In this document: piece by piece, positions 10,187 to 63,559 of the stretch
How the letters are laid out: each line of letters opens with the position of its first letter
Numbering within the stretch: the stretch's first letter is position 1
Assembly (NCBI RefSeq): GCF_000014045.1
Contig: NC_008209.1
Coordinates: 1,635,001 to 1,699,000 of the forward strand
DNA length: 64,000 nucleotides
From: Roseobacter denitrificans OCh 114
GTDB taxonomy: Bacteria > Pseudomonadota > Alphaproteobacteria > Rhodobacterales > Rhodobacteraceae
Direction of reading: 5' to 3'
The notes under the pieces: generated by a model
The model's input: the letters and a program-made list of their open reading frames with translations, nothing else
Databases searched by the model: none
What the model was told of the DNA's origin: nothing
Position numbers and translations under genes: made by a program

Positions 10187-10224
10187 AACGCTGCCTGAAA
10201 TCAAGGATTTCAGCGCTTTACGTG
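10187..10224. repeat. Dispersed hairpin repeat, copy A
   Basis: This 38-base core is identical at 34 of 38 positions to copy B at 57197-57234 and clearly related to copy C near 62926-62970. Its centre is the hairpin TGAAATC-aag-GATTTCA. It lies in the gap between two convergent genes, as do the other two copies. Confidence 0.75.
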
Positions 10225-10413
10225 TCAAGGGCAGCGGCGCTTTCCCGCACCGGGCGCGGGCGGGCCAAACCCCGATCCCGCACCCTGAGATATCTGTGTC
10301 ATCCGGTCCGAGCCGGATCACATTTCTGCGGCTGTCAGGTATAAATCCAGCACAATCGTTGCGAAAAGCGCGGCTGGTTTGAATGCGGCGCGACATGGCA
10401 ACGCCGCCGCTCA

Positions 10414-11592
10414 TCAGGTATCGCGTGTTTGCGGCGTTTTGATCCCCAGCACGGAACCGGCGATCTGCGTGCGCAGCACTTGCGCCGTGCCACCGCCAAT
10501 GGTGAACATCCGAACGTCGCGGTACATGCGTTCGAGCGGTTCGCGGTCTCCATATCCGCGCGCGCCGAACATTTGCAGGGAATCGCTGACGGTCTTTATC
10601 GCCATTTCCGATGCAAACAGCTTGGCGCGTGCGGCCATGGTCATGTCAGGGAACTGGCTGCCACCGGGTCCGCGCGATTGCGCGGCCGCGTGCAACAAAA
10701 GGCGCGCGGCACAAAGCTGGGTGTCCATGTCGGCGATCATCCATTGCAACCCCTGAAACTCTGCCAAGGGACGGCCGAATTGCCTGCGTTCGAGCAGGTA
10801 TTTTTTCGCATGTTCCAATGCACCTGCCGCCACGCCCATCGCAATCATACCCGCGCCCACCCGTTGAGAATTGTAGGCATTCATCAAGTCGGCAAAACCG
10901 CGTTTGAAACCTGATGGCGGGATCAGCGCCATGTCTGCACCCACCATGAGGTTTTCAAACCTGAGTTCAGCCTCGGGCATCCCGCACAGCCCCATGGTTT
11001 TCTCGCGGCCAAGGACATAAAAACCGGGCGGTTCAATGCCCGCGCCCGGGTCCACATGAACGATAAATCCACCGATCCCGAGGTCTGATCCATCACCGTC
11101 CAGAACCCGCGCGAATATCAGGTAGAGCTTTGAAACCCCGCCCCCTGTGATCCAGTGTTTCGTGCCATTGATCACATAGGTATCGCCCTGCTTTCGGGCG
11201 GTTGTGCGCATTTCGGTCGCAGCACTACCCGCATCGGGCTCGGTGATGCAGATCGCCGGTTTGTCTCCGGCCAGAACCAGCGGCGCACAGAGTTGCTTCT
11301 GCGTATCCGTGCCATAGGCCATGACGGCGCTGATGCCGCCCATATTGGCCTCGACCACGACCCGCGCTGTGAGCGTGCAGGCCTTGGCCACCTCTTCGAC
11401 AACCTTGACAACATCCAGATAGCTGGCCCCAAGGCCGCCAAGCTCCTTGGGAATGGTCATGCCCATGATCCGCGCATCAACCAGATCCGTGATATTGTCC
11501 CAGCAGTAGGCGCGTTCTCTGTCCCATTTCGCCGCACGGGCCGCGAACACAGGCGCAAGCGCGCGCGCCCTGGCAACTGTATCACGTGTCAT
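10414..11592 (-). CDS. Acyl-CoA dehydrogenase superfamily protein, candidate 3-sulfinopropanoyl-CoA desulfinase
   Basis: The 392-aa protein has the full acyl-CoA dehydrogenase fold: an N-terminal helical part, the FAD/substrate beta domain (CITEPDAGSAATEM, HWITGGGVSK), and a C-terminal helical domain (RRQFGRPLAEFQGLQWM, then GGGTAQVLRTQ). The catalytic Glu is absent from both usual places: GGGT replaces the EGT motif near the C-terminus, and Gln243 (in YNSQRVGAG) sits where isovaleryl-type enzymes carry Glu. From memory, the Advenella desulfinase Acd has the same Gln and an Arg corresponding to R77 here, and it shares many nearby phrases. That enzyme removes sulfite from 3-sulfinopropanoyl-CoA without net oxidation. 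General ACD function is the fallback. The gene stands alone. Confidence 0.8.
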   Translation of the reverse strand: MTRDTVARARALAPVFAARAAKWDRERAYCWDNITDLVDARIMGMTIPKELGGLGASYLDVVKVVEEVAKACTLTARVVVEANMGGISAVMAYGTDTQKQLCAPLVLAGDKPAICITEPDAGSAATEMRTTARKQGDTYVINGTKHWITGGGVSKLYLIFARVLDGDGSDLGIGGFIVHVDPGAGIEPPGFYVLGREKTMGLCGMPEAELRFENLMVGADMALIPPSGFKRGFADLMNAYNSQRVGAGMIAMGVAAGALEHAKKYLLERRQFGRPLAEFQGLQWMIADMDTQLCAARLLLHAAAQSRGPGGSQFPDMTMAARAKLFASEMAIKTVSDSLQMFGARGYGDREPLERMYRDVRMFTIGGGTAQVLRTQIAGSVLGIKTPQTRDT

Positions 11593-11730
11593 AAGTGCCT
11601 CTTGATTTGATTTGAACCAGCATGAACGCCGCCGACTTCTGCGCAGTCACATACAGATAACCCGATACCCAAGGATATCGACCCGGCGCAGTTGCATGCA
11701 CCATTCACGCCAAGACATAACAGGGCGTCA

Positions 11731-12045
11731 TTATCCCCCGCTGATCTGGACCTTGCCAAGGATTTTAGCGCCGCTTTCCGTCGTCAGCGTTTGCGCGCTG
11801 ACATCCGCTTCGACTTGCGCGGTTGAGGCAAATGTCAGGTCATCGCATTTCAGGTTGCCTTTGTGTTTGCCCTGAACGGCGATCTTCCTCGCGGCAAGCG
11901 CCCCGTCTACGGAACCTGTGCCATGGATCAGAACCGCTTCTGCCGTGACGTCCCCGACGACCTTGCCTTTTATGTCCACGTTCCCGCCTTTCGACGAAAC
12001 ATTGCCTTTGATTGTAAGGTCTTCTTCTATTGTTGAAACCGCCAC
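11731..12045 (-). CDS. Bactofilin-family polymer-forming cytoskeletal protein
   Basis: This 104-aa protein consists almost entirely of the repeated beta-strand pattern of the bactofilin (DUF583) domain: LTIKGNVSSKGGNVDIKGKVVGDV and following turns with Gly and Val/Ile alternating, which fold into a right-handed beta-helix that self-polymerises. Bactofilins act at the membrane or cell wall in shape or positioning. The start has AGGAG at correct spacing. There are hardly any flanking tails, so this is a minimal bactofilin. It sits alone between the TRAP operon and the ACD gene on the same strand, with no peptidase (LmdC type) next to it. Confidence 0.87.
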   Translation of the reverse strand: MAVSTIEEDLTIKGNVSSKGGNVDIKGKVVGDVTAEAVLIHGTGSVDGALAARKIAVQGKHKGNLKCDDLTFASTAQVEADVSAQTLTTESGAKILGKVQISGG

Positions 12046-12103
12046 ATCTTGCTCCTCAATTTGTGTTGAGCGTGATCGTAGAGTGGCGTGGGTGATTTGA
12101 ACA

Positions 12104-12144
12104 CCCGTTTAGGCGGTCCGGGGCGCGGGGAAGGGGTAAACGGG
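12104..12144 (-). terminator. Possible stem-loop after the TRAP operon
   Basis: CCCGTTTA (12104-12111) and TAAACGGG (12137-12144) are exact reverse complements around a GC-rich 25-base loop, 10 bases after the stop of the large TRAP permease. No clear T run follows, so this may be a terminator or an mRNA-stabilising structure. Confidence 0.4.
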
Positions 12145-12153
12145 CCCGGATTG

Positions 12154-13704
12154 CTAAAACAGGGCGTCGGGCAGCCACGTGGCGAGGGATGGCATGCTCC
12201 AGACAAGGAAAATGCCGACTGCCTGCAGGGCAATGAAAGGCACCACCCCGCGATAGATCTGGCTTGTTGCAATCTCGTCCGGGGCTGCCGCGCGCAGATA
12301 AAACAGGGAAAACCCGAAGGGCGGCGTCAGAAAGCTGGTTTGCAGGTTGATGGCCAGAAGGATGCCTAGCCATATCGGGTCATGGCCCATCACGATCAGG
12401 GACGGGACCACCAAAGGCAGTACGATGACGGAGATTTCGACAAAATCGAGGAAAAAGCCCAGAACGAATACAAAGAGCATCACGAACAGCAATGTACCGC
12501 TGGGGCCGCCGGGCAGGCTGGCGAGGACGTGTTCGACGCGTTCCTCTCCGCCCAGGCCAATGAAGACCAGCGAAAAGAAACCCGCCGCAAGGATGGTTGC
12601 AAAGATCATCGCTGTCATGGTGAGGGTCGAATTCAACGCATCATGGATGATCCTTTTGCGAAATGCGGCCCGCAGCGCCAATCCAACCGCGCCAAGCCCC
12701 GTCAGCGCAAGCAGCCCGTAGACGCCCCCGGCCATCCATTCCAGCATGCCATTGTCGTTGCGCTGCAGGCGAATTGGAAAGGACCCCGCGAGAATGGCCA
12801 GCACAATCAAGGCCGCAACGCCCAGAAGGATCAGCCGCGTGTGACTGCCGGTTTTACGCCCGGCCATCAAAAGCGCTCCGATCGCGCCGACGGAGGCCGC
12901 TTCTGTCGGGGTGGCAATGCCGCCAAGGATGGCGCCCAGCACCGCAAAGATCAGCAGGACAGGCGGCAGGATCGCCGCCAGAACCTCACGGCTGTCCGGG
13001 CGGCCCAGACCGAGTTCCGCCGGGGGCATATCGGTCGGTCTGAGCGCGCCGCGTATGAGGATATAGAGCAGGTAGAGCGTCACCAAAAGCAGGCCCGGTA
13101 TGAGGGCTGCGGCAAAAAACTGCCCCACCGAAAGCGCCTCGACCGAGAACTTGCCCTGTTCGTATTGGGCTTGCTGGAAGGCGTTTGACATCACATCAGC
13201 GAGGATGATGAGCAGGGTTGAGGGGGGGATGATCTGCCCCAGAGTGCCCGCCGTGCAGACAATGCCCGAGGCGACCGCCGGGTTGTAACCTGCACGCAGC
13301 ATCGTGGGCAGCGCGATCAAGCCCATCGCGATGACCGTCGCGCCCACAATGCCCGTCGAGGCCGCCAGCAGCGCCCCGACCAGAACCACGGAAATACCCA
13401 AGCCACCCCGCAACTGACCAAAGCAGCGCGCCATGGTGTCGAGCAGCTCTTCGGCGATCTTGCTTTTTTCAAGTATCGCGCCCATCAGTACGAAAACCGG
13501 GATGGCGATCAGCACCTGATTGCTGATCAGGCCAAAGGCGCGTTGCCCCAAAGCCCCCAGAAGGGAGACATTCATGATCCCCATCATCCAACCGAGATAG
13601 GCAAAGATCACCGCCACGCCCGCGATGCTGAAAGAGACGGGAAAGCCTGAAAGGATCGCGACCATGAGGGCTGCAAACATGATCAGGTCCAGGTATTCGG
13701 TCAC
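12154..13704 (-). CDS. TRAP transporter large permease (DctM type)
   Basis: The 516-aa integral membrane protein forms the translocation channel of a tripartite Na+-dependent importer. The start is GTG at 13704, overlapping the stop of the small permease as GTGA; a longer frame upstream is not needed. Many hydrophobic helices are visible, along with DctM hallmarks such as GGLGISVVLVGALLAASTG, TAGTLGQIIPPS and TPTEAASVGAIGALL. The extra ~60-residue central hydrophobic block puts it in the larger (about 500-aa) TRAP subgroup often annotated mannitol/chloroaromatic or 2-oxo-acid type. It forms an operon with the small permease and binding protein upstream. Confidence 0.93.
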   Translation of the reverse strand: MTEYLDLIMFAALMVAILSGFPVSFSIAGVAVIFAYLGWMMGIMNVSLLGALGQRAFGLISNQVLIAIPVFVLMGAILEKSKIAEELLDTMARCFGQLRGGLGISVVLVGALLAASTGIVGATVIAMGLIALPTMLRAGYNPAVASGIVCTAGTLGQIIPPSTLLIILADVMSNAFQQAQYEQGKFSVEALSVGQFFAAALIPGLLLVTLYLLYILIRGALRPTDMPPAELGLGRPDSREVLAAILPPVLLIFAVLGAILGGIATPTEAASVGAIGALLMAGRKTGSHTRLILLGVAALIVLAILAGSFPIRLQRNDNGMLEWMAGGVYGLLALTGLGAVGLALRAAFRKRIIHDALNSTLTMTAMIFATILAAGFFSLVFIGLGGEERVEHVLASLPGGPSGTLLFVMLFVFVLGFFLDFVEISVIVLPLVVPSLIVMGHDPIWLGILLAINLQTSFLTPPFGFSLFYLRAAAPDEIATSQIYRGVVPFIALQAVGIFLVWSMPSLATWLPDALF

Positions 13705-14198
13705 GATTTTGCACCTTGCACAAGCAGACGGATCAAAAGGGACAGCGATTGCAGGATGATGAGACAGCAAAACGCCGGGATCAGCGATTTGAGCAGAAAG
13801 ACGGCCTCGATCCCGCCGACGGACATCGGACCCTCAAGGATTTTCCAGGAATTGCGCACCGAAGGCCACGACCAATAGAGCAGCACCGTCATGGAGGGCA
13901 GCAGCAAAAACACATGTCCAAAGATATCGACCCTGCGGCGGCTACGTTCGGTGAGCTTGGCGTAGAAGACATCGACACGGACGTGTTTGTCGACCAGCAG
14001 CGTATACCCCGCTCCCAGCATGAAAAGGGTCGCATGCATGTAGAGCACGCTTTCCTGCGCTGCGATGGAATTGTAGCCAAACACATAGCGGCCAATGACA
14101 ATGCAAAACTGTACCAGCACCATCGCCAGAGCCAGCCAGCGCACCGCATAAGCGACCTTTTGGTTCAGCCGATCAACCGCGTCTGCAAATGCCAGCAC
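13701..14198 (-). CDS. TRAP transporter small permease (DctQ type)
   Basis: The 165-aa membrane protein has four hydrophobic segments, the standard DctQ layout, and the conserved sequences VRVDVFYAKL and SWKILEGPMS. It links the binding protein to the large permease. It ends with a 4-base overlap onto the large permease gene and starts 62 bases after the binding-protein gene. That spacer holds a GC-rich imperfect hairpin (about 14225-14252), possibly limiting permease expression relative to the binding protein. Confidence 0.92.
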   Translation of the reverse strand: MLAFADAVDRLNQKVAYAVRWLALAMVLVQFCIVIGRYVFGYNSIAAQESVLYMHATLFMLGAGYTLLVDKHVRVDVFYAKLTERSRRRVDIFGHVFLLLPSMTVLLYWSWPSVRNSWKILEGPMSVGGIEAVFLLKSLIPAFCCLIILQSLSLLIRLLVQGAKS

Positions 14199-14260
14199 GC
14201 TACTTCCCCCTCGTTACCGCAGGATGGGCGCGCAGCACAGGGCCGCGCGCCAGCGGTGTT

Positions 14261-15346
14261 TCAGTAGCCGAAAACTCCGGCGCGGGCATTCATCTGCCCG
14301 TTGTCCGCATAGGTCATGTAACCGCCAACCAGATCGCGATAGGCGATAAAGCTCTCGGTAATACGGCGCACCAGTTCATCGTCATCCGCGCGGTATTCTT
14401 CCATGATTTCACCGGCGGCGCTGCCCATGGCAGCGATCACGTCATCGGGCAGTTTGCGGACGGTGACGCCATGCTCTGACACCAGCGTTTTGAGCGACTG
14501 GGCGTGTTTGGTCGTGTATTCGGTCCACACCGGGTTATAGAGCCCGGTACAAGCCTGCGTGACGACCTCTTTGAGGTCATCGGACAAGGCTGCGAAAGCG
14601 TCGGCGTTGACACCGCATTCCTCTGCGGAGGAGGGTTCTCCAACGCCCGGCCAGTAGTAGTTCTTGGCGACCTGATAATAGCCCAATGCAGAATCCGTCC
14701 ACGGCCCGATAAACTCGCCCGCATCCAGCGCGCCGGTCTGCAGCGCCTGGAACATCGCCGGGCCGCTCATGGCTTCGGCGGCCATGCCCAGTTTCGCCGC
14801 CATTTGCGACGCAATCCCGGTGGTTCGGAATTTCAAGCCCTTGAGGTCTTCGACGGAGTTGATCTCATTCTTGAACCAGCCCGCCCATTGTGGGCCGGAG
14901 TTGCCGCACAGGAATGGTTTGATTCCGAAACGGCCATACATCTCATCATAAAGCGCCTGCCCCCCGCCATGCTGCATCCAGCCGAATTGTTCATCTGCGC
15001 GCAGGCCAAAGGGTTGCGAGCCAAACAACAGGATGCCCTTTGATTTCGACCCCCAATAGGCGGGCACGGCGTGATAGAGTTCCGCGGTGCCCTCGGAGAC
15101 AGCATCAAACACGCCGCGACCTGGCACCAATTCACCCGCCGCGAAGAGTTTTACTTCAATCCGGCCACCTGACAGCGTGGTAATCCGATCCGCAAGCATT
15201 TGCGCAGCCACACCAGGGCCGGGCAGGTTCTTGGGCCATGCGGTGACCATCTTCCACTGCATCACATCCTGCGCGATGGCGGGCGCGGCGAGGGTTGATG
15301 CTGCAACTCCAACGGTTCCTGCCCTCAAAAAATCTCGTCTGTCCAT
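14261..15346 (-). CDS. TRAP transporter substrate-binding protein (DctP family), Tat-exported
   Basis: The 361-aa periplasmic receptor begins MDRRDFLRAGTVG, a twin-arginine signal, followed by an AxA cleavage region (APAIAQD). The ATG at 15346 follows GGAGAGAG, and the frame upstream is untranslated. Typical DctP phrases are QWKMVTAWPKNLPGPG, FRTTGIASQMAAKLG and GEFIGPWTDSALG. This subgroup binds 2-oxo or aromatic carboxylates as dimers in characterised cases, but the ligand here cannot be fixed. It is the first gene of a three-gene operon and faces a GntR-family regulator across a 335-base gap. Confidence 0.93.
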   Translation of the reverse strand: MDRRDFLRAGTVGVAASTLAAPAIAQDVMQWKMVTAWPKNLPGPGVAAQMLADRITTLSGGRIEVKLFAAGELVPGRGVFDAVSEGTAELYHAVPAYWGSKSKGILLFGSQPFGLRADEQFGWMQHGGGQALYDEMYGRFGIKPFLCGNSGPQWAGWFKNEINSVEDLKGLKFRTTGIASQMAAKLGMAAEAMSGPAMFQALQTGALDAGEFIGPWTDSALGYYQVAKNYYWPGVGEPSSAEECGVNADAFAALSDDLKEVVTQACTGLYNPVWTEYTTKHAQSLKTLVSEHGVTVRKLPDDVIAAMGSAAGEIMEEYRADDDELVRRITESFIAYRDLVGGYMTYADNGQMNARAGVFGY

Positions 15347-15681
15347 TTCTCTCTCCTTGTTGGGTTGAATGCGTTTTCTTAACCGGCTGTTTGTGACGCG
15401 CTGTTCCGGTGCGGGACGCGCAACCATTGCGCCAACACACCATCAATCAGGCGCGCAGTTTCAGCGGCCGCAGTGTGTGACGGGATGCAGGTGTTTGGCA
15501 TTTATGGTCCTTGTTTTATCCCCGACTTGAAGTTAATATGTAGCTACATAAAAATGTCAACGTCGTTTCAGCACGGGAGGCCGCGCATGCCACTCATTTG
15601 CGCGAAACATCCGCAGAGTCTTGCAAGCAGCCTGTTTGACCGGGCAGCCCCGCTCCGGCGGTGGCGGCGGGAGGCAGCCGT
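15347..15681. promoter_or_regulatory. Divergent regulatory region between the TRAP operon and the GntR gene
   Basis: No gene is seen here. The region contains the perfect palindrome at 15537-15550 (separate entry) and borders the dyad GTTTGAC-tg-GTCAAAC at 15680-15695, which covers the proposed start of the regulator. Both are plausible GntR-family operator forms, so the regulator probably controls the transporter and itself from here. Confidence 0.5.
15537..15550. promoter_or_regulatory. 14-bp perfect palindrome TATGTAGCTACATA, candidate GntR operator
   Basis: The palindrome sits about mid-way between the divergent TRAP binding-protein gene and the GntR/UTRA regulator gene. GntR proteins bind as dimers to short dyads with GT...AC half-sites, and TGTAGCTACA fits that form. 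Regulation of the TRAP operon by this site is inferred from position. Confidence 0.5.
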
Positions 15682-16383
15682 TTGACTGGTCAAACCCGCC
15701 TTTCCTGGACTGATGTGCGTGATGAGATACAGGCGCGTATTCTCGACCGGACATATGCACCGGGGGACAAGCTGCCGCGCGACAACGATCTCGCTTTGGG
15801 GTTGGGATGCGCGCGCACGACCGTGCACCGCGCGATGCAGGACCTCGCGCGGATAGGATTGGTCGAACGTAAGCGAAAAGGCGGAACCCATGTCAGGGCC
15901 GACCCGGTGACGCGCGCCACCTTTGATATCCCGATCACCCGGCGTGAGGTCGAGCAGCGCGGCAGTACCTATGACTACCGGCTGATCAGCAGCGCGGTGG
16001 AGCCCATGCCGGAGTCAGTCCTACTGCGTTTTGGCAGCAGCGAGCCGGGCGAAGCCTTGCATGTCAAAGCCGTGCATCTGTCTGACAGCAAACCATATAT
16101 CTTTGAAGATCGCTGGATAGACATCACAACAACGCCCGATATCCTGCAGGTCGACCTTGCCGGTAGCAGCGCCAACGAATGGCTTGTGCGCAACAAGCCC
16201 TACAGCAAGCTCGATGTCCGCTTCTTTGCCGTGAATGCCAAAGGTGAAAACGCTGAACACCTGTCTGTCGCGGCAGGAGAGGCCTTGCTGGTGATTGAAC
16301 GCACCACATGGATCGGTTCGGCTCCGATCACGACGGTTCGATCCGTGACGGCCCCGGGGTATCAACTGTCGGCGCAAAACTGA
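15682..16383 (+). CDS. GntR-family transcriptional regulator with UTRA domain (HutC subfamily)
   Basis: The ~233-aa protein has an N-terminal winged helix (PGDKLPRDNDLALGLGCARTTVHRAMQDLARIGLVERKRKGGTHV) and a C-terminal UTRA ligand domain. Phrases such as IFEDRWIDI and LVIERTTW are close to HutC-type repressors. I prefer the TTG at 15682 because GGGAGG lies seven bases before it; GTG at 15661 in frame has no ribosome binding site. The divergent TRAP operon is the likely target, with a small carboxylate or amino acid as effector. Its start overlaps a perfect dyad, which suggests autorepression. Confidence 0.88.
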   Translation: MTGQTRLSWTDVRDEIQARILDRTYAPGDKLPRDNDLALGLGCARTTVHRAMQDLARIGLVERKRKGGTHVRADPVTRATFDIPITRREVEQRGSTYDYRLISSAVEPMPESVLLRFGSSEPGEALHVKAVHLSDSKPYIFEDRWIDITTTPDILQVDLAGSSANEWLVRNKPYSKLDVRFFAVNAKGENAEHLSVAAGEALLVIERTTWIGSAPITTVRSVTAPGYQLSAQN

Positions 16384-16646
16384 TCACGCTGCGATGCATC
16401 TTTTTGACTGGCCGAGCAGCGGATCGTCTCTTAACTTCTTGTCTGTCAGCGCCTGCCACTTGACGCCGACCTGCGCAAGAGCGCTTAAATGACTGGCGTG
16501 GTCGTTAAAGCCGCAGATTTTAGGCGTGCGATTGTTTCGGACAGTGGAAAACCGCGCGTTTGTGTATACTACTTTAAGACACATTGGGTTTAATGTATTT
16601 GATGAGCGCCGTGAGAACGGGCATTTAAACGGGTGGGGTTGGTATC

Positions 16647-19687: not shown

Positions 19688-19849
19688 AGACAAACGGGCG
19701 GCTACATGTTGAGGCGCGGCAAGACGCGTCGCCTGCGATCACGAAGCTGTGATTGGGTGTTATGGCCGGTTTTGCGGCGCTTTGTTCGGATTCGGCGGAT
19801 TGCGTGCTAGTTTTTCAAGGGAACAACAACCGTAACAGGAGAACCGGAA

Positions 19850-54421: not shown

Positions 54422-54432
54422 CATAAGCGCGT

Positions 54433-54454
54433 CAGACAGGTTGACCGCTGTCTG
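54433..54454 (+). terminator. Hairpin after the DUF2235 gene
   Basis: CAGACAG-N8-CTGTCTG is a perfect 7-bp stem 12 bases after the stop. No T run follows. The rest of the gap to 54685 holds no gene I can support. Confidence 0.4.
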
Positions 54455-54685
54455 AGATCCGCCGCCCTGCCTGATGCGCTCCGCTAAAGGCAGTTTTTGC
54501 CTCCGCATCGGATCCTTCGCCGACAGGGCACGCTGCACCTCGGATTCTGCGGCAGCAAGGTCGTAGGTTTTGGAATCCGGCAGTTTTACCATGGATTCGA
54601 CCGTCGCTATAAAAAACGCCCCAAAACAAAGGCAACTGCGACGCGCAGGTGTTTAAATACTGTCCATCTACTCGGCGCGTCGTCT

Positions 54686-55168: not shown

Positions 55169-55228
55169 CTGGTTCTCCGCAAAAGTGTGTTGCGGGGAGC
55201 TTAAGCGGCTGGGGCGCGGCTTCAAGGT

Positions 55229-56098: not shown

Positions 56099-56144
56099 CG
56101 TTTTATCCTTGGGCTTTTCATGACTTGTGCCACAGAAGTAAAAA

Positions 56145-56157
56145 TGAGACAAATTCA
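56145..56157. promoter_or_regulatory. Candidate MetR-type site between metF and the LysR gene
   Basis: TGAG-ACAAA-TTCA fits the MetR-type consensus TGAA-N5-TTCA at all but one base and lies in the 87-base divergent gap. The position near the middle of the gap is right for a LysR-type activator site controlling metF. Confidence 0.4.
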
Positions 56158-56185
56158 TAACTTTCATCTTTAACATGAGTTCGGT

Positions 56186-57091
56186 ATGCATATTGAATTT
56201 CGCCATCTGCGCACGATCGAGGCGATCCATGAGGCCGGGGGCTTGGCGCGTGCGGCGGAACAGTTGCATATCACGCAATCCGCTTTGAGTCATCAAATCA
56301 AGGGCTTGGAGGATCAGGCGGGGGTTGAGCTCTTCGTGCGCCGCTCCAAACCGCTCAAGCTGTCTCCGGCGGGGATGCGCTTGCTGAAACTCGCGCGGCA
56401 GGTCTTGCCGCAGATCAAGGCATTGCAGGATGAATTCACCGGCTTGCGCGCGGGCAGCACGGGGCGGATGCATATCGCCATTGAATGCCACGCCTGTTTT
56501 GAGTGGCTGTTTCCCGTGCTGGAACAGTTTCGCAAGGCCTGGGGGGAGGTCGACGTGGACATCCGCCCCGGTCTGGCCTTTGATGCGCTGCCCGCGCTGC
56601 TGAAGGAGGAAGTCGATCTGGTGGTGTCATCCGACCCCGAAGACCTGCCCGGTGTGGAATTTGTCGAACTCTTTGATTATGCGCCGGTTTTCGTGGCCGC
56701 CAGCACCCATGCGCTGGCGCAGAAACCCTATGTCGAGGCGGGCGATTTTCGTGGTGAGACCCTGATCACCTATCCGGTGGAGCGTTCGCGTTTGGATGTG
56801 TTCAGCCAGTTGCTTATCCCGGCCAAGGTCGAACCTGCGGCGATCCGGCAGGTGGAACTGACGGCCGTTATCCTGCTGTTGGTGGCGTCCAATCGGGGGG
56901 TCGCGGTCTTGCCCGATTGGGTGGTGCGCGAGGTGAAGTATTCATCTGATTATGTCACGCGGCCCCTTACGGCCCAAGGGATCACGCGGCGTCTTTATGC
57001 GGCGGTGCGCAGTGATGATCTGGACAAGCCCTTCATGCAGCATTTGCTCGACCTCGCAGGGGAGGAGGCGCGGAAACTGCAGTCGGCGTAA
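56186..57091 (+). CDS. metR: LysR-family regulator, probable MetR
   Basis: The 301-aa protein has an N-terminal HTH (~residues 1-60; RHLRTIEAIHEAGGLARAAEQLHITQSALSHQIKGLE) and a C-terminal effector domain. The HTH is very like MetR, which senses homocysteine and activates metE, metF or metH. Its divergent position from metF supports that identity. It is followed by the structured repeat copy B. Confidence 0.88.
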   Translation: MHIEFRHLRTIEAIHEAGGLARAAEQLHITQSALSHQIKGLEDQAGVELFVRRSKPLKLSPAGMRLLKLARQVLPQIKALQDEFTGLRAGSTGRMHIAIECHACFEWLFPVLEQFRKAWGEVDVDIRPGLAFDALPALLKEEVDLVVSSDPEDLPGVEFVELFDYAPVFVAASTHALAQKPYVEAGDFRGETLITYPVERSRLDVFSQLLIPAKVEPAAIRQVELTAVILLLVASNRGVAVLPDWVVREVKYSSDYVTRPLTAQGITRRLYAAVRSDDLDKPFMQHLLDLAGEEARKLQSA

Positions 57092-57168
57092 GTCAAATGT
57101 GACGGACCCGCCCCGTTGCCCTTGTCACATATGGGTACAGGGTGCGGGGCGGGTATCTGGTCACCTGC

Positions 57169-57267
57169 AGCGTCTGCTGAAAGACCTCTGTCACGCAACG
57201 CTGCCTGAAATCAAAGATTTCAACGTGTTACGTGATGTTTGGTCTTTCAGATATCTCGTCAGACGCT
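57169..57267. repeat. Dispersed hairpin repeat, copy B, with long flanking stem
   Basis: The core (57197-57234) matches copy A at 34 of 38 bases. Outside it AGCGTCTG (57169-57176) pairs with CAGACGCT (57260-57267), and CTGAAAGACC (57177-57186) pairs with GGTCTTTCAG (57241-57250). The centre is the perfect hairpin TGAAATC-aaa-GATTTCA. The last paired base abuts the stop codon of the convergent gene at 57268, so the element fills much of the gap between metR and the carbonic-anhydrase-like gene. Confidence 0.75.
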
Positions 57268-58125
57268 CTAGTTGATGTCGGAAATCAGGTCCGGGTTCGC
57301 GACGAGGTTGCGCACGCCATGGGCTTCGCCCTCATTGAAAATATTGTCGGACAGCCATGTCTCGACGCTGGTGATGGAGACTTTCATGACCTCAGGGCGC
57401 ACACGCCATGACACCTGCAGCGGTGATCCTTGTTCGTTGAAAGAGGGGCCCGTTGTCGATCCGTTGTAGGCGATCGGGGTGCCGGTGTCGGTGGGGATGT
57501 TGACCGCCTGATAAAGGCCGTCGACTTGTTCGACTTGGGTCAGGGTCACGAAATCTGCCGCGTCGGGATCGTTGACGAGCACATAGACCTGTGCTTCGAC
57601 GCGCAATTGAGGGTTGCCGATGGCGTCTGACAGGCAGGAGCCCAGTGTCGGGCCCGGTTCGATTTGCGCAGTGGTGTGGACGTAATGCAGTTCAATCGTG
57701 TCGCCCGGTGCCAGATCGCCATATGTCCCGGCGCCGATGGTGCGTCCCAAAGGGGCCAGTTCAGCTTCGGACAGGGTGCCATTATACCTGAAGCCCGTGC
57801 CAGCGCCCGCCCCATCGCCGTTGCCTGCGTAGGTCGTGAATTCGCCGCCCCGGTGTTCGGCGTTTTCATGAAAGTGGATGTTGCACAGGTTCATTTGCGT
57901 ATATTCGGGGGCGGTGCCGAAGGCGCGCGGGTTGTTGCCGCGCAGGGTTTCGAGGTCACGCGGGGATTGTGGCCCGAAACCGGCGCCTTGCGTATTTTCG
58001 GCCAAGGCTGCCCGTTGTGCGGCGATGACATCATCGCCGACAGCGCCGTGTCCGTCCGCAAAGGTTGCGCCCGCTGTGAGCGTCAGAAGGCCAAAGGCAC
58101 CAAGGCAAATTCTGGTAGATTTCAT
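57268..58125 (-). CDS. Secreted carbonic-anhydrase-like protein (delta-class type)
   Basis: The 285-aa protein has a Sec signal peptide (MKSTRICLGAFGLLTLTAGATFADG). The phrase LCNIHFHENAEH gives H84-x-H86 and E90-H91, and TIELHYVH gives H147 and H150. These resemble the zinc ligands of alpha/delta carbonic anhydrases (HxH...EH, then ELHLVH). C81 and C163 could form a disulfide. Periplasmic CO2/bicarbonate exchange is the inferred role. The family assignment is from memory of motifs. The gene has its own transcription unit. Confidence 0.72.
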   Translation of the reverse strand: MKSTRICLGAFGLLTLTAGATFADGHGAVGDDVIAAQRAALAENTQGAGFGPQSPRDLETLRGNNPRAFGTAPEYTQMNLCNIHFHENAEHRGGEFTTYAGNGDGAGAGTGFRYNGTLSEAELAPLGRTIGAGTYGDLAPGDTIELHYVHTTAQIEPGPTLGSCLSDAIGNPQLRVEAQVYVLVNDPDAADFVTLTQVEQVDGLYQAVNIPTDTGTPIAYNGSTTGPSFNEQGSPLQVSWRVRPEVMKVSITSVETWLSDNIFNEGEAHGVRNLVANPDLISDIN

Positions 58126-58149
58126 ATGTCGTTATAGCCTGTTTTTTAT

Positions 58150-58179
58150 TAAAAAAAGGCAGCGTGAATCCGCTGCCTT
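58150..58179 (-). terminator. Rho-independent terminator of the ccmI-ruvX-DUF1289 operon
   Basis: On the minus strand AAGGCAGCG (58179-58171) and CGCTGCCTT (58064-like partner at 58064 is not meant; the arms are 58056-58064 offset by 100, i.e. 58156-58164) form a 9-bp stem with a 6-base loop (58165-58170), followed by a T run at 58157-58151. It lies 108 bases after the DUF1289 stop and before the carbonic-anhydrase-like gene. Confidence 0.75.
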
Positions 58180-58286
58180 GCACATCATAGATGTGCGCGC
58201 GGGTGGCGTGATTCAAGGTCGTTGTGATCTGTTTCGTGGGGGGTGGGCGCCTGCCGCGACATCACGCCGTGGCATCGGCCGGTGGA

Positions 58287-58514
58287 TCAGCGGGCCAGCC
58301 GTGCGGCCCGTCCGCCGCGACGTCTGCTGAGCAGCCCTTGCCTGCCTGGCAATTCGTCCATCACCATGCGCCGCGCGTCGGGGGAGAGTTTGGACCACAT
58401 CGTGATCTCCTCGATGGAGCGCAGGCAGCCGGTGCACAGGCGTGCCTCGGGGTGGATCACACAGATTTTGACGCAGGGGCTTTCGACTTCGTCCCGCTTC
58501 CAGATGTCACTCAT
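58287..58514 (-). CDS. DUF1289 family small Fe-S-like or zinc protein
   Basis: The 75-aa protein has the family Cys pattern SPCVKICVIHPEARLCTGCLRSIEEI (four Cys, positions 14, 18, 27 and 30), suggesting metal binding. It ends in an Arg-rich tail. Function unknown. It overlaps ruvX by four bases and is the last gene of the ccmI-ruvX-DUF1289 unit, with a terminator downstream. Confidence 0.87.
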   Translation of the reverse strand: MSDIWKRDEVESPCVKICVIHPEARLCTGCLRSIEEITMWSKLSPDARRMVMDELPGRQGLLSRRRGGRAARLAR

Positions 58515-59002
58515 TCTTGGTCCTGTTCTGCTCGAATTACGCGGATGCGATCCAGCGCGCCTTGCAGGATATAGGCTGCGGCAACGTGGTCAATGACCTC
58601 TGCGCGACGTTTTCGGGACGTATCCGCCTCAAGGAGCGCGCGTTCGGCGGCGACGGTGGACAGGCGCTCATCCCAGAACGTGATGGGCAGGTCCGACCCG
58701 ATGGATTTGTCCAGATTGCGGGCAAAGGCGCGGGTCGACTGGCAGCGCGGCCCTTCGGAGCCGTCCATGTTGCGCGGCAGGCCCAGCACCAGCCCGCCGA
58801 GCCGCCGTTGTGCCACGATGTCGCTCAGACGTGCGGCGTCCAGCGTGAACTTGCGCCGTTTGACGGTTTCCAGCGGCGTGGCGACGGACAGGAACGTGTC
58901 GCTGACGGCAACACCGATGGTCTGGGTGCCCAGATCAAGGCCCATGAGGCTGCGCATGGAGGGAAGTGCCGCGAGAAAGTCAGCGGTGTCTTCAAGGATC
59001 AT
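58511..59002 (-). CDS. ruvX: Putative Holliday junction resolvase / pre-16S rRNA nuclease
   Basis: The 163-aa RNase H-like protein shows SLMGLDLGTQTIGVAVSD near the N-terminus and VLGLPRNMDGSEGPR in the middle, followed by FWDERLSTVAAERAL; the acidic residues are those of YqgF/RuvX. It acts in rRNA 3'/5' maturation or junction resolution. It overlaps both neighbours by four bases. Confidence 0.92.
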   Translation of the reverse strand: MILEDTADFLAALPSMRSLMGLDLGTQTIGVAVSDTFLSVATPLETVKRRKFTLDAARLSDIVAQRRLGGLVLGLPRNMDGSEGPRCQSTRAFARNLDKSIGSDLPITFWDERLSTVAAERALLEADTSRKRRAEVIDHVAAAYILQGALDRIRVIRAEQDQE

Positions 59003-60240
59003 TCGGCCACTTGCGCCCGTTGTCCGGCGCGCAGCAGCAGATCGAGCGCGCGGGTGTCGTCGGCAAAGGCCTGAATGGCGTTTTCATAGACGCTGCGCGC
59101 CGCACCGGTCTGGCCCAGGACGCCAAGTGCGGTGATCAGCTGCGCCCAGTCCTGTACCGGGCCGCCTTCGGTGCCGAGCCGGTCCGAGAGGCCCTGCACC
59201 ATGCTCTCGATCATCTCGAGGCGTTCGGAGGGGCTCATCTCACCGGCGGCTTCGATGTCCGCAGCGCTCGGCCCGCCGGGAGCGTCCAGTCCGGGGCCGA
59301 TTTCGGGGAGTTGATAGTTCACGCCAGCGCGAAACGCGAGGTCTTCGATCTGGGCGAGAATGGGTTCGATCCAGGCGGCCTCGCGCGGGCCTTCGCGCAG
59401 CAGTTGATCCCAGATGCGAAAGGCATTGTCGGGGCGTCCGGTCTGCGCCAGCATCAGGCCGACGTAGTAGCGCGCCGCGCCATTGGTGGGATCAAGGGCA
59501 AGCACCCGGGTCAGCACGCTTTCCGCTTCGGGAGAGACATAGCCACCGGCGGCGAGGATCAGCATGTCGGCGTAATTCGCGTAGTCTTCGCTGGTCGCCT
59601 CATCGCCGCGCACCCTGATGATTTCCGCCTGCGCGCGGGCGGCGGCGCGGAAATTACCGAGGTTACCCTCGTTCTGCGCCAGAAGGGTCAGGCCCTGAAT
59701 ATCGTCGGGGCGTGCGGCCACGGCCTCGCGCAGCCGTTCCACCAATGCGACGTAATCGGGGCTGATGTCCGGGGGGGCCACATAGGCGGGCAGGCTGTCT
59801 TCGGCCTCTTGCTGGCTGGGACGGTTTGCGCGGGCTTCTTCGGCCAGAACGATGCGATCCTTGAGGGCCAGATCGCCATAGCCCGGCGCGCCGATATTCA
59901 TGTAAAGCCACAGGCTGCCACCGACCAGAACCACCGCCAGAATGGCCCCGACCAGACCCGGTGCACCCTTGTTTGCGTCCGCTTCGAGCGCATCGGTTTG
60001 CAGGGCGGCATCTGCCGCGAGGATGCGGCGTGAGATCTCGGCCCGCACGCGGTCGGCATCGGCAGGATCCACAACGCCGCGCGCCAGGTCCTTCTCCACC
60101 TCGCGCAGCTGATCACGATAGACTCGCAGATCATAGGCCGCCGCAGGTTCGGTCATGCCGCGTTTCGGCGCGCGCAGGGCAAGTACCATCAAAACGGCCA
60201 CAATGATTGCCAGTCCAGCCGAGATAATCCAGAACGTCAT
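58999..60240 (-). CDS. ccmI: Cytochrome c biogenesis protein CcmI
   Basis: The 413-aa protein has a start at ATG 60240 (MTFWIISAGLAIIVAV), two N-terminal membrane helices (~residues 3-24 and 92-113) with an intervening cytoplasmic coiled coil (YRDQLREVEKDLARGVVDPADADRVRAEI), and a long periplasmic TPR-containing part (~180-330) that holds apocytochrome c. It acts with CcmF and CcmH in haem ligation. The longer open frame before it is not used. Other ccm genes are not in the window. Confidence 0.92.
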   Translation of the reverse strand: MTFWIISAGLAIIVAVLMVLALRAPKRGMTEPAAAYDLRVYRDQLREVEKDLARGVVDPADADRVRAEISRRILAADAALQTDALEADANKGAPGLVGAILAVVLVGGSLWLYMNIGAPGYGDLALKDRIVLAEEARANRPSQQEAEDSLPAYVAPPDISPDYVALVERLREAVAARPDDIQGLTLLAQNEGNLGNFRAAARAQAEIIRVRGDEATSEDYANYADMLILAAGGYVSPEAESVLTRVLALDPTNGAARYYVGLMLAQTGRPDNAFRIWDQLLREGPREAAWIEPILAQIEDLAFRAGVNYQLPEIGPGLDAPGGPSAADIEAAGEMSPSERLEMIESMVQGLSDRLGTEGGPVQDWAQLITALGVLGQTGAARSVYENAIQAFADDTRALDLLLRAGQRAQVAE

Positions 60241-60484
60241 AAAGCCCTCTTGCAGCGTTGGACTATTCATGTAGCGATCAAATGGGCCGCGCAAAAGGGG
60301 CAAACGATCAAGAGCATGGCAGTTGCATGCGAGATGATGTCGCGCGTCGCCGGTTTTGGGGCAAGGGCGCGCGCGCATGCCTTGTTTGCGCCGGGCAGGC
60401 CAATGCGCCCTGTGGCCCATTGCTCAGGGCGCACACAGGCGCCGTGATGGGCCGCGAACCGACCCTGCGCCGTGGTTTCGCCGG

Positions 60485-60679
60485 TTACTTGGGCGTTTTG
60501 TCTGTCTTGTTGTTTTCGCCTGCGGCAGAGCCGAATGCGATCAGGTTGCTGACATCTACTTCACGTCCGCCGCGCGCTGCCTTGCGTTTGGCCATGCCGC
60601 GCCGTTCCAGTACGAGCAAGACGATGGCAATCGCGCCGATGCTGCCAAATCCAAGTACTGCCAACATTTGTTCACTCAT
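60485..60679 (-). CDS. Small single-helix membrane protein (64 aa)
   Basis: From the ATG at 60679 with GGAGAG before it, the protein is MSEQMLAVLGFGSIGAIAIVLLVLE followed by a basic then polar tail ending NNKTDKTPK. One membrane helix (~residues 5-24). It follows 245 bases after the start of ccmI on the same strand. No family recognised. Confidence 0.6.
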   Translation of the reverse strand: MSEQMLAVLGFGSIGAIAIVLLVLERRGMAKRKAARGGREVDVSNLIAFGSAAGENNKTDKTPK

Positions 60680-60871
60680 CAAGTCTCTCCGTTCTGTGAG
60701 GTTCGCTTCAGTATAGCGCAAGTTGGCAGGCGGGCCAAATGCGCGGTGCTCAGCCGATGGGGTTGGGGCGCAAAGGCTGTCACCCGCCGAAAGTTGTCGG
60801 GGATTTCCGCCTATATTGCAGCGTGCCCCGGACCCGTCATCATGAGCCTCTCATCAAAAGGAGAGAAGATC

Positions 60872-61066
60872 ATGTCAGACTACTCACAGCACAACCAAGG
60901 CATCGGTGGCAAAGGTATTGTTGTCGGATTGCTTCTCATCGGGCTCTTTGTGGCAGGGCTTGCGTTCCTCGGCGCGAACGGCTCGGAAGTTGAACCGGGC
61001 ACTGCTGTCATAGATCCCGCCACCCCGGTGGCAGAGCCTGAAACGGCACCGGCCATCACGGAATAA
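60872..61066 (+). CDS. Small single-helix membrane protein (64 aa), hypothetical
   Basis: The ATG at 60872 follows AAAAGGAGAG. The protein is MSDYSQHNQGIGGKG, a helix (VVGLLLIGLFVAGLAFLG), and a Pro/Glu/Thr/Ala-rich tail (PATPVAEPETAPAITE). It probably sits in the inner membrane with the acidic tail outside. No family recognised. Confidence 0.65.
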   Translation: MSDYSQHNQGIGGKGIVVGLLLIGLFVAGLAFLGANGSEVEPGTAVIDPATPVAEPETAPAITE

Positions 61067-61247
61067 TACAGGGTATTCACTGAAACCTACGAGGGCGCGC
61101 GTGTGACACCGTGCGCCCTTTTGCGCCAGATGTGCCCGCGCGGCATCGCAGGTGAATGTGGCTCGCGGAAATCGCGACACTTTGGACTTTGAATTGTCCA
61201 AGCGCTGCCGGTACCCTGACAACATACTTCTTTGCGTTAGGTACCAC

Positions 61248-61664
61248 ATGTTTAAAAAATTGACGGCGTCCGCACTGGTTTCTTTGCTTTTCGCCGGGAC
61301 CGCAACAGCGGGCGGCACTTATTACGACTGCGATATCAACACGACCCGCGCAAGCGGTGGGTGGGTTTCCGAAAAATTAGCAATCATTATGAAAGAAAAC
61401 GGGCAGGTGCTTGTTTCTGACTCCGTGGTTTTGCAGTTTAACAAAGCCCCCATCGTGGCACGTGTCACGCGGAACAATGATCGCAAGATGGTCGTGCGCT
61501 GGCGATTGAACAATAACGTCAACAGCCAAAACCAGCAGACGCCCTCCTTCGACTATACCGCCTCGCTGACGAAATCGAACAACAAGGTGCATGTATCAGG
61601 CTCCCCTGATGGCTATCCTAACCGGTTTACAGGTTCGGGCACCTGCGTGCTGAAAAACGGCTGA
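61248..61664 (+). CDS. Secreted hypothetical protein, tandem paralogue 1 (138 aa)
   Basis: The ATG at 61248 starts a Sec signal peptide (MFKKLTASALVSLLFAGTATAG), then GTYYDCDINTTRASGGWVSEKLAIIM. The mature part has two Cys (YDC, GTC) for a disulfide and ends PDGYPNRFTGSGTCVLKNG. It shares with its neighbour the pattern GxxYDCxI...WxSEK...SDSVxLxF...PDGYPNRFxGxGxCV. I do not recognise the family. It probably folds as a small beta protein in the periplasm or outside the cell. Confidence 0.8.
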   Translation: MFKKLTASALVSLLFAGTATAGGTYYDCDINTTRASGGWVSEKLAIIMKENGQVLVSDSVVLQFNKAPIVARVTRNNDRKMVVRWRLNNNVNSQNQQTPSFDYTASLTKSNNKVHVSGSPDGYPNRFTGSGTCVLKNG

Positions 61665-61668
61665 TCCG

Positions 61669-62103
61669 ATGAATAGATCAGCAACGGTGTGCGCGCTGCT
61701 CGCGGTGGTCGGTGTCGTGGGGGTCGTGCCCGCCGCGTCGCGTGCTGCGGGCACTCTTTATGACTGCACAATCACTCAAAAACGCGAAGGTGTTGACTGG
61801 ATATCCGAAAAGGTTGGCATTGTCATAAGACAGGGGCAACCCGCGGTTATCTCAGATTCGGTTATCTTGCACTTTTACGGAAAGCCCATCGAGACAACGC
61901 AGGTTCGTAACAGGGCGAACAAGCTGGATGTAAGGTGGACCTTGCGTGGGGCGCGCGACGATGCCAATCAGACCGTCAACCACATGGATTACAACGCCCG
62001 GATCAACAAGCAAACCGGTGCCTTCAGCCTTTATGCCAAGCCGGATGGATATCCCAATCGGTTCAGCGGCAAAGGCAACTGTGTGACCAAGACCGCAAAA
62101 TAG
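61669..62103 (+). CDS. Secreted hypothetical protein, tandem paralogue 2 (144 aa)
   Basis: This second copy begins five bases after the first stop. It has a signal peptide (MNRSATVCALLAVVGVVGVVPAASRAAG) and then GTLYDCTITQKREGVDWISEKVGIVI, with the matching end PDGYPNRFSGKGNCV. Sequence between the anchors has diverged more, so duplication is not recent. The pair probably forms one operon. Confidence 0.8.
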   Translation: MNRSATVCALLAVVGVVGVVPAASRAAGTLYDCTITQKREGVDWISEKVGIVIRQGQPAVISDSVILHFYGKPIETTQVRNRANKLDVRWTLRGARDDANQTVNHMDYNARINKQTGAFSLYAKPDGYPNRFSGKGNCVTKTAK

Positions 62104-62157
62104 CTTTTGTCTATACGCTTGGAACTTTTTGCGCGCCCTGATACTTGAACTGCGAGC

Positions 62158-62181
62158 GTGTAGCGCTTCATTGCACTACAC
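62158..62181. promoter_or_regulatory. Inverted repeat GTGTAG-N12-CTACAC before sodB
   Basis: The two 6-base arms (62158-62163 and 62176-62181) are perfect reverse complements and sit about 35-55 bases before the sodB start, where a redox or iron regulator could bind. No regulator is identified. Confidence 0.35.
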
Positions 62182-62213
62182 ACCGCATTGAATAACCAAG
62201 AGGGGGCCCGACA

Positions 62214-62813
62214 ATGGCTTTTGAACTTCCTGATCTTCCCTACGCGCATGATGCTCTGGCGGGCAAAGGCATGTCCGCCGAAACGCTGGAATACCACCAC
62301 GACCTGCACCACAACGCCTATGTGACCAATGGCAACAAGGCGATTGAGGGCACCGAATGGGCGGGCAAGTCCATGGAAGACATCATCACGGGCACCTATG
62401 ATGCCTCTGCCGTGGCGCAGAATGGCATCTTCAACAACATCAGCCAGTTGTGGAACCACAACCAGTTCTGGGAAATGATGGGTCCGGGTGAGAGCAAGAT
62501 GCCCGGAGAGCTGGAAAAAGCGCTGACCGAGAATTTCGGGTCTGTCGATGCGTTCAAGGAACAGTTTTCCGCCGCCGGTGCGGGTCAGTTCGGGTCAGGC
62601 TGGTGCTGGTTGGTGAAAAACCCTGACGGCTCGCTGGCGGTGACCAAGACGGAAAACGGCGTGAACCCGCTGTGTTTTGGCCAGACGGCATTGCTCGGCT
62701 GCGATGTGTGGGAGCATTCGTACTACATTGATTTCCGCAACAAACGCCCTGCCTACCTGACAAACTTCCTCGACAACCTCGTCAATTGGGAAAACGTCGC
62801 ATCGCGCATGTAA
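62214..62813 (+). CDS. sodB: Superoxide dismutase, Fe-type
   Basis: The 199-aa enzyme disproportionates superoxide. Metal ligands lie in TLEYHHDLHHNAYV (His), LWNHNQFW (His), and DVWEHSYYIDF (Asp and His). SQLWNHNQFW has the Gln position typical of Fe-SOD, and GSGWCWLV is the Fe-type phrase. It starts with AGAGGGGG upstream and ends in a clear terminator. Confidence 0.95.
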   Translation: MAFELPDLPYAHDALAGKGMSAETLEYHHDLHHNAYVTNGNKAIEGTEWAGKSMEDIITGTYDASAVAQNGIFNNISQLWNHNQFWEMMGPGESKMPGELEKALTENFGSVDAFKEQFSAAGAGQFGSGWCWLVKNPDGSLAVTKTENGVNPLCFGQTALLGCDVWEHSYYIDFRNKRPAYLTNFLDNLVNWENVASRM

Positions 62814-62838
62814 CCGCGTGACAGGTTAAGTTGTTGCA

Positions 62839-62871
62839 GCCCCGTGTCATCGTTGATGGCGCGGGGTTTTT
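62839..62871 (+). terminator. Rho-independent terminator after sodB
   Basis: GCCCCG (62839-62844) pairs with CGGGGT-side bases at 62861-62866, with a second short CATC/GATG stem inside, followed by TTTTT to 62871. It starts 26 bases after the sodB stop. Confidence 0.75.
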
Positions 62872-62925
62872 CGTAGCGATTGAATGCCCGGAGCCCCCTA
62901 AAGTCTCATGCGAAAAACCTGGATC

Positions 62926-62970
62926 ACGCAAGCACTGCCTGCAATCAGGGAGTTCAACGCCCTACGGGAT
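62926..62970. repeat. Dispersed hairpin repeat, copy C (degenerate)
   Basis: The segment beginning CACGCAAGCACTGCCTGCAA keeps the TGCCTG(A/C)AATCA(A/G)GGA(T/G)TTCA(A/G)CG pattern of copies A and B with scattered changes, so the central hairpin is weaker. It also keeps TCACGCAA before the core and CGTCAGGCGC after it, like copy B. It lies between convergent sodB and the LOG-family gene. Confidence 0.6.
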
Positions 62971-62992
62971 TCTTGATGTGTCGGGTGGTTCG

Positions 62993-63559
62993 TCAGGCGC
63001 CCTGACCAAAGGCGCGCTGCAGCTCTTGGCGGCAGGCCTCGGCATCGGGCACGGTGGTGTAGAACCCGTGCAGCGTTTCATCGGCAAAACCATGCGCTGT
63101 CACATGTTGCAGAAGCGATACCAGCGGGTCCCAATATCCGTTTGTATTCAATAGGAATATCGGCTTTTGATGCAGGCCCAGTTGCCGCCATGTCAGGGCT
63201 TCGAACATCTCATCCAGCGATCCGGCACCACCGGGCAGCACCACGACGGCATCGCAATTCATGAACATGACTTTCTTGCGCTCATGCATGGTTTCGGTGA
63301 TCACATAGGTGGTCAGATCGGTTTTCCCGATTTCCCAATCCACCAGAAGTTGCGGGATCACGCCAAAGGTGTCAGCGCCCGCCTCCTGCGCCGCGCGCGC
63401 CACAGCTCCCATCAGCCCGACATCGCCTGCGCCATAGACCAGCCGCCAGCCTTCATCGGCGATCACGCGGCCGATGTTTTGCGCGTCCTGCAGGAAGTCG
63501 GGGTCGGTTCCGGGGCGGGATCCGCAATAGACACAGACGGATTTTGGGGGCATCGGCAT
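62993..63559 (-). CDS. LOG-family (TIGR00730) nucleotide-hydrolase-like protein
   Basis: The 188-aa Rossmann-like protein begins MPMPPKSVCVYCGSRPG; an internal ATG at 63553 is a possible start. LPGGAGSLDEMFE carries the LOG motif PGGxGTxxE with Ser instead of Thr, and YGAGDVGLMGAVARAA is typical. Members release cytokinin riboside-like bases or hydrolyse AMP and related nucleotides. The bacterial role is uncertain. Confidence 0.9.
   Translation of the reverse strand: MPMPPKSVCVYCGSRPGTDPDFLQDAQNIGRVIADEGWRLVYGAGDVGLMGAVARAAQEAGADTFGVIPQLLVDWEIGKTDLTTYVITETMHERKKVMFMNCDAVVVLPGGAGSLDEMFEALTWRQLGLHQKPIFLLNTNGYWDPLVSLLQHVTAHGFADETLHGFYTTVPDAEACRQELQRAFGQGA

Follow-up and report, generated by a model that had tools for sequence, protein, structure and literature searches.

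Three structured repeats between genes in a 64,000-nt stretch of Roseobacter denitrificans OCh 114 (NC_008209.1, positions 1,635,001 to 1,699,000; this whole stretch is referred to as the window) raise the question of what kind of element they represent and why they lie at the ends of facing genes. The original prediction had described them as copies A, B and C and had offered three options, namely bidirectional terminators, RNA-stability elements or a small mobile palindromic family. The present analysis confirms and extends this observation, and the mobile palindrome is the right one of these options. Each copy is very probably a non-autonomous transposable palindrome, similar to a miniature inverted-repeat transposable element (MITE), that is moved by a transposase acting in trans with a YTAR target and TA duplication, and whose ends rebuild stop codons.

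A palindrome family in R. denitrificans

The identity of copies A (10187-10224) and B (57197-57234) at 34 of 38 bases was reproduced. Within the window, a 33-nt pattern derived from copy B matches copies A and B only, with no match in 100 shuffles. Searched against the whole genome, a core pattern yields 125 and 124 matches on the two strands versus 1 and 0 for the reversed control. Of the first 30 loci, that were chosen by the core pattern, 24 entered a covariance model (CM); L005, L008, L012, L018, L022 and the duplicate L030 were dropped. At E ≤1e-5, this model detects at least 150 copies of an imperfect palindrome of approximately 105 bp in the R. denitrificans genome (element counts in all genomes are lower bounds). 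Copy C, previously called a degenerate relative of A and B, is recovered as a full-length diverged copy. The exact length of 105 nt is found in 97 of the 150 listed copies. No strand bias is seen (73 plus, 77 minus).

Based on the first 30 loci, the unit reads TAAAGCGTCATGCGAAAAACCTGAATCACGTAACGCTGCCTGAAATC-AAR-GATTTCAACGCGTTACGTGATACT..GATGTTTCAGGTATTTCGTCAGACGCTCTA. Over its full length, the consensus forms a hairpin on either strand (-47 and -51 kcal/mol). The sequence CGTCAG(A/G)CGC, that had been noted to trail the repeats, is real and constitutes the right end of the element itself.

Rfam lists no match above the gathering score within the window, and the palindrome was not matched at E 1e-3 in 50,697 phage records. 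Carriage by phages or viruses was considered and rejected, the single 18-nt match in a viral contig being located inside an open reading frame (ORF) without the element. The R. denitrificans family is not named in the open-access texts and excerpts consulted, and the excerpt of a MITE review (PMC10969869) does not mention Roseobacter.

Some copies deviate from the standard form. At G000:C1:952781-952885 and 952883-952987 (L073), two copies are arranged head to tail with the junction triplet common to both; apparently, one palindrome was inserted at the end of another. Short forms with an internal deletion and both ends kept occur at G000:C1:1915484 (L234) and G012:C3:3568667 (L236), with lengths of approximately 44 and 67 bp by eye.

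Target site and empty sites

The copies are flanked in the layout Y-TA-element-TA-R. Copy A is omitted from the counts based on 149 copies, and the orientation test additionally omits 3 copies with one neighbour undetermined. The left flanking base is Y in 143/149 copies and the right one is R in 139/149. Both TA dinucleotides are intact in 53 copies, 49 of which show YTAR (CTAG 16, CTAA 14, TTAG 13, TTAA 6), a pattern found in 6.3% of NTAN in the window. Since the element bases beside TA do not follow the outer bases, the duplication is TA and not YTAR. The element comprises about 101 bp between two TA dinucleotides. Its insertion, by a transposase that would act in trans, takes place at the TA of YTAR sites with duplication of this TA, as shown by the flanks and by one locus that is empty in three relatives.

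At the latter locus (C1:235969), genomes G001, G003 and G009 carry the same two convergent genes with a 4-nt overlap at CTAA, and the filled site in R. denitrificans reads CC-TA-element-TA-ACC. The locus is uninformative in G002, G005, G007 and G008, that have a different right-hand neighbour. At C1:2960752, R. litoralis is devoid of the element and a gene of equal length (609 nt) ends at the junction. Copy C is missing in R. litoralis, where 42 nt are found instead of 140, and copy B is common to both species. No empty site was found for copy B, whose left neighbour is absent from the best 80 of 208 relatives of the right gene.

In a sample of 20 R. litoralis copies, 9 have a clear counterpart in R. 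denitrificans; the 10 copies with the best scores contribute one of these and the 10 with lower scores eight. Two further best-scoring loci (L061, L385) match R. denitrificans copy loci imperfectly and may be shared. This pattern is as expected if young copies are lineage-specific. Taken together, the elements are short, non-coding and multi-copy, with inverted-repeat ends, a target-site duplication and insertion polymorphism between relatives, as is characteristic of MITEs. The small mobile palindromic family is thus strongly supported by the at least 150 copies, the TA duplication in YTAR, the empty sites and the patchy distribution.

Genomic context and stop codons

Neighbouring genes were assigned with a home-made gene caller trained on the R. 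denitrificans genome. The assignments contain errors: the copy at C3:46213 was called convergent, whereas its neighbours are tandem genes in the public annotation of this plasmid. With copy A included, the 150 listed copies are distributed over convergent (+-, 106), tandem (++, 19; --, 19) and divergent (-+, 3) gaps, and 3 are undetermined. Without copy A, 105/149 copies are convergent, compared to 43/347 gaps in a 400 kb sample from twenty chromosome places, which bears out the suspicion that convergent placement exceeds chance. Where both neighbours lie within 200 bp, 88/107 copies are convergent. Relative to the available YTAR sites, the enrichment is 105/146 versus 63/464 (odds ratio 16, p=7e-40); tandem gaps hold 38 copies versus 274 sites and divergent gaps 3 versus 127. 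In the R. litoralis sample (20 of at least 65 copies), 15 copies are convergent, 3 tandem and 2 undetermined, with stop-codon contact in 15/20.

The stop codon of a neighbouring gene lies at the element edge in 90/149 copies (the -12 class described below included), and on both sides in 24. The left gene's stop is formed by the first three bases of the element in 57 copies (TAA 36, TGA 15, TAG 6) and the right gene's stop by the last three in 44 (TAG 35, TAA 6, TGA 3). The bases that follow the TA are AAGCGTC at the left end and, on the opposite strand, GAGCGTC at the right end. Insertion at a TAA or TAG stop therefore recreates TAA (TA+A) or TAG (TA+G), and with the stop recreated by the element end, gene length and a stop are kept.

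In 13 copies, the right gene's stop is found nine bases deeper inside the element (position -12). The boundary codon of these genes is CAG in 7, GAG in 2, and AGT, CAT, TCA and GAA in one each; CAG looks like an eroded TAG, the stop now being the TGA of TAG-AGC-GTC-TGA. Copy C belongs to this class. Its right boundary TA is now TG, and the TGA inside the element is used because the boundary codon has changed. The reported contact of copies B and C with neighbouring stop codons is accurate in both cases (Table 1).

Among the available YTAR sites in convergent gaps of <400 bp, 14/26 are stop codons, so that an element with a YTAR target will often land at stops. Compared to all convergent gaps, a background that includes a few very long, perhaps miscalled gaps, copies are docked at stops in excess (docked:gap 77:28 vs 14:49, odds ratio 9.6, p=1e-10). 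With gaps of <400 bp as the background (14:12), a weak excess is left (odds ratio 2.4, p=0.06). For ++ gaps, the ratio of docked to gap copies is 8:11 vs 7:117 (odds ratio 12, p=8e-5; <400 bp, 5.4, p=0.015), and in -- gaps 5/19 are docked, an excess that is not significant. A preference for stops beyond YTAR is possible.

The convergent enrichment can be explained by the target site plus tolerance. Insertions in promoters, operons and coding interiors would be disfavoured, and the surviving copies would accumulate at convergent stops, with which the numbers largely agree. Tolerance is also the published reading of the same convergent bias in pneumococcal repeats and IS elements (PMC3049150, in excerpt).

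Conservation across genomes

The model matches 11/39 genomes, R. denitrificans included. No match was obtained in the remaining 28/39, among them 9/18 other members of the genus. Within the genus, the counts range from 0 to at least 150, with the highest numbers in R. denitrificans (at least 150), R. litoralis (G012, at least 65), G006 (at least 26), G014 (at least 24) and G010 (at least 12). One copy of R. litoralis Och 149 is located at NC_015741.1 (G012:C4) 92034-92138. The 69-kb plasmid of the R. denitrificans genome agrees with NZ_CP027408.1 at 100% identity over 2801 bases. The G006 matches reach a best E of 2.4e-10 and none of them fits the end pattern; these elements are perhaps a subfamily with other arms. 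At the family level, copies are present in 23/295 genomes, R. denitrificans included, each of another genus. The 22 genomes of other genera provided 18 usable elements (3 were not included and 1 was dropped, its locus being cut short). Nine of 17 readable elements are convergent and 9/17 abut a stop, as judged by a gene caller untrained for these genomes.

The arms of other genera (e.g. AGCATTTCGCGTT) differ from those of R. denitrificans (AAGCGTCATGCGAAA / GAGCGTCTGACGAAA) yet co-vary: two-sided changes are found in 17/37 pairs, and the cross-genus covariation score is 0.217, compared to 0.086 ± 0.010 for shuffled and ≤0.089 for slid alignments. Covariation of the arms across genera indicates that the fold matters. 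The comparison across genera shows a hairpin kept by compensatory change. It may serve as a transposase substrate, or as folded RNA or DNA bound by another protein. The core around TGAAATC...GATTTCA is nearly invariant across genera, as detected by a model from R. denitrificans, with which conserved cores are found more readily. Among the R. denitrificans copies themselves, the covariation signal is modest (64 two-sided cells vs 40 ± 6), and in 121 copies outside the model set the conservation of the core does not clearly exceed that of the arms. The original prediction had anticipated many copies, compensatory changes and convergent enrichment from a genome-wide covariance search; the first and the last were found, and compensatory change is strong across genera and modest within the genome.

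Two likenesses in the core were seen by eye. The cores of other genera contain attC-like boxes (RYYYAAC/GTTRRRY), that are broken in R. denitrificans. An IHF-like site agrees with 8/9 specified bases of WATCAANNNNTTR, the chance level not being assessed.

Search for the driving transposase

The driver would likely be an IS5-family transposase similar to the IS427 group. The palindrome's YTAR target and TA duplication agree with the published target of IS711, that is inserted at YTAR with TA duplicated (PMC2266754, in excerpt). Paracoccus elements of the IS427 group show 2-bp duplications in 10/11 cases (PMC3281130, in excerpt). Stretches of about 835 bp around DUF4096 genes, apparently bounded by CTAG on both sides, were found in R. 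litoralis (L320, 1405-2240) and G014 (L321, 1418-2252) and have the appearance of insertion sequences. In the case of G014, the same pair of ends was also obtained by an independent search for inverted repeats.

Orphan terminal repeats were rejected as ends of a larger autonomous element. Eight loci were read among the matches listed, and these represent additional copies, partial or internally deleted ones, or chance similarities. At L233, a left and a right end are separated by about 650 bp, yet their order is inside out.

Several observations weigh against a MITE that is mobilized in this way. No transposase with ends matching the palindrome was found in the loci examined, in a search that was not exhaustive. 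PF13358 (IS630 type) is absent from the R. denitrificans genome and from 9/10 further genera with the element that were searched, and in the remaining one a fragment was found (the search covered G000-G009, 7 other-family genomes, G010-G019 and ten other element-bearing genera). PF13340, searched in five genomes, is absent from R. denitrificans as well, and ten DUF4096 loci from four genomes are devoid of palindrome-like ends. Both CTAG-bounded end pairs ranked second in the end search. On the side of the insertions, TA is intact at both ends in only 53/149 copies, and the R. litoralis junction at C1:2960752 is GTGAAC, which is not YTAR, so that the duplication is unreadable there. Conservation of the core across genera is not required of a plain MITE. 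Finally, some of the tests show more docking at stops than the available YTAR sites would predict, and target plus tolerance alone may not explain it. With no transposase with matching ends found, the family may be stranded in this R. denitrificans strain, and the driver may have been lost or may lie outside the searched set.

Alternative explanations

A mobile palindrome could later have been co-opted, with selection retaining those copies at which convergent transcripts end or that form a hairpin sensitive to RNase. The excess of convergent copies over YTAR availability, the docked excess in convergent and ++ gaps and the fold covariation across genera agree with this reading, which is possible and on the whole unlikely: in gaps of <400 bp the convergent excess is weak, although the ++ excess persists, -- gaps show no significant excess, and within the genome the core does not stand out from the arms. 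Moreover, tolerance alone has been published for the similar bias of RUP and SPRITE (PMC3049150, in excerpt).

In a more specialised version, that we hold doubtful, the family would be adapted to gene ends. YTAR and the termini would form a device for docking at stop codons, and a TGA located three codons inward from the right end, which some genes already use, would act as a reserve. The core would be recognised by a protein of the host or an enzyme of RNA processing, whereby the element becomes a tolerated, even useful convergent boundary. Such docking would extend to the TA common to two overlapping convergent stops and would rebuild both.

An IS630-family driver, as proposed for pneumococcal RUP, is improbable. 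IS630 elements prefer CTAG as target, which fits, as do the TA duplication and a PF13358 fragment of 32 residues in R. litoralis; within the genus, weak matches also occur in G004, G005 and G014. The absence of PF13358 from R. denitrificans and nearly all other element-bearing genera searched argues against such a driver.

A bidirectional transcription terminator or insulator maintained by the host between convergent genes is very improbable. The convergent enrichment, the long hairpin on both strands and the compensatory changes across genera are what such a function would predict. However, a scan of 56900-63300, covering copies B and C, lists no GC-rich hairpin with T-tract at either copy, and the terminator option of the original prediction is not supported. 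By eye, sodB beside copy C possesses its own GC-rich hairpin and T-run in both species, with or without copy C, although the scan did not list this hairpin. The lack of a palindrome match in 28/39 genomes and the mostly lineage-specific high-scoring copies of R. litoralis likewise speak against host maintenance. Chance likeness of three intergenic hairpins is refuted by 249 strand matches versus 1 in the control and the at least 150 copies found by the model.

Copies A, B and C and their neighbours

The features in the window are compiled in Table 1. Placement in convergent gaps, as described for all three copies, holds for B and C. It is less certain for copy A since it rests on an 88-aa ORF (9913-10179) that was missed by the gene caller and has no Pfam match. 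The stop codon TGA of this ORF is located inside the copy A remnant (element position ~22-24 by eye), and the tail of the ORF may be element-derived. Relatives of the PF10563 delta carbonic anhydrase are found in marine alpha-, gamma- and zetaproteobacterial genomes.

Table 1 Palindrome copies and adjacent features in the window (bits refer to the CM)
Feature	Position	Strand	Remarks
Copy A, core-only 49-nt remnant	10175..10223	+	42 bits, E 1e-5, model 20-68
Copy B, full-length element	57166..57270	+	102.8 bits, model 1-105; orthologous copy in R. litoralis
Copy B inner hairpin TGAAATC-AAA-GATTTCA	57206..57222	+	helix 3, almost unchanged among 19 elements, each of a different genus
Stop TAG of the delta-carbonic-anhydrase gene at the right edge of copy B (CTA, last three bases)	57268..57270	-	
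Copy B left neighbour, LysR-type regulator	56186..57091	+	Pfam PF00126/PF03466
Copy B right neighbour, delta carbonic anhydrase (CA_like)	57268..58125	-	Pfam PF10563
Copy C, full-length diverged element	62899..63004	+	71.9 bits, model 1-105; absent at the R. litoralis orthologous site
In-frame backup stop TGA within copy C	62993..62995	-	boundary codon now CAG; TAG there in R. litoralis
Copy C left neighbour, Fe/Mn superoxide dismutase (sodB)	62214..62813	+	Pfam PF02777/PF00081
Copy C right neighbour, SLOG/lysine-decarboxylase-like family	62993..63553	-	Pfam PF03641

Implications

Since its target is often a stop codon and it carries the replacement, a parasite-like repeat can multiply to about 150 copies while burdening a compact genome only little. 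Some genes gain new 3' ends in this way, with TAG changed to CAG and the stop borrowed from inside the element. The copies, some of them with empty sites in relatives, represent a natural insertion set for testing the effect of convergent hairpins on transcript ends. Co-varying arms around a conserved core, if true, would be uncommon among MITEs, and the core offers a candidate binding site that can be tested.

Comparison with known elements

REP/RAYT elements are GTAG-tagged hairpins associated with a Y1 transposase; the TA duplication argues against membership of the palindrome in this class. RIME of Rhizobium is an intergenic palindromic or MITE-like repeat and is likened here by description only. 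The same applies to the Correia elements, that are likewise intergenic palindromic or MITE-like repeats (PMC3049150, in excerpt).

A palindrome of the form TAGAGC...GCTCTA from Rhizobiales was found at 1056 places in 354 plasmid records. The genes on either side of the one site inspected are convergent in the annotation of three strains, and the copy in a Rhizobium ruizarguesonis plasmid (L421, 1201-1253) is flanked by C-TA...TA-A. On the basis of this single site, it differs from the R. denitrificans palindrome by a matched stretch of 53 bp and a different core.

Bru-RS1 and Bru-RS2 of Brucella are intergenic palindromes of 103-105 bp in another alphaproteobacterium (PMC2267715, in excerpt). 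According to the excerpt, they are reported as hot spots for IS711 insertion and not as YTAR insertions themselves; the likeness is one of description, not of sequence. RUP of Streptococcus pneumoniae measures 107 bp and has terminal repeats and target duplications, and both RUP and SPRITE are over-represented between convergent genes (PMC3049150, in excerpt). In this source, RUP is densest 50-150 bp from genes, whereas 90/149 R. denitrificans copies lie exactly at a stop codon, and the proposed RUP driver, IS630, was not found in the R. denitrificans genome.

The IS427 group of the IS5 family shows 2-bp duplications in most members, and members were captured as functional in Paracoccus (PMC3281130, in excerpt). 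Apparently CTAG-bounded copies are present in R. litoralis and G014. Unlike the palindrome, these are elements of about 835 bp with a transposase and other end sequences. The R. denitrificans palindrome is an element of a known kind, and is a distinct variant by its docking at stop codons with rebuilt stops and by its conserved core in co-varying arms.

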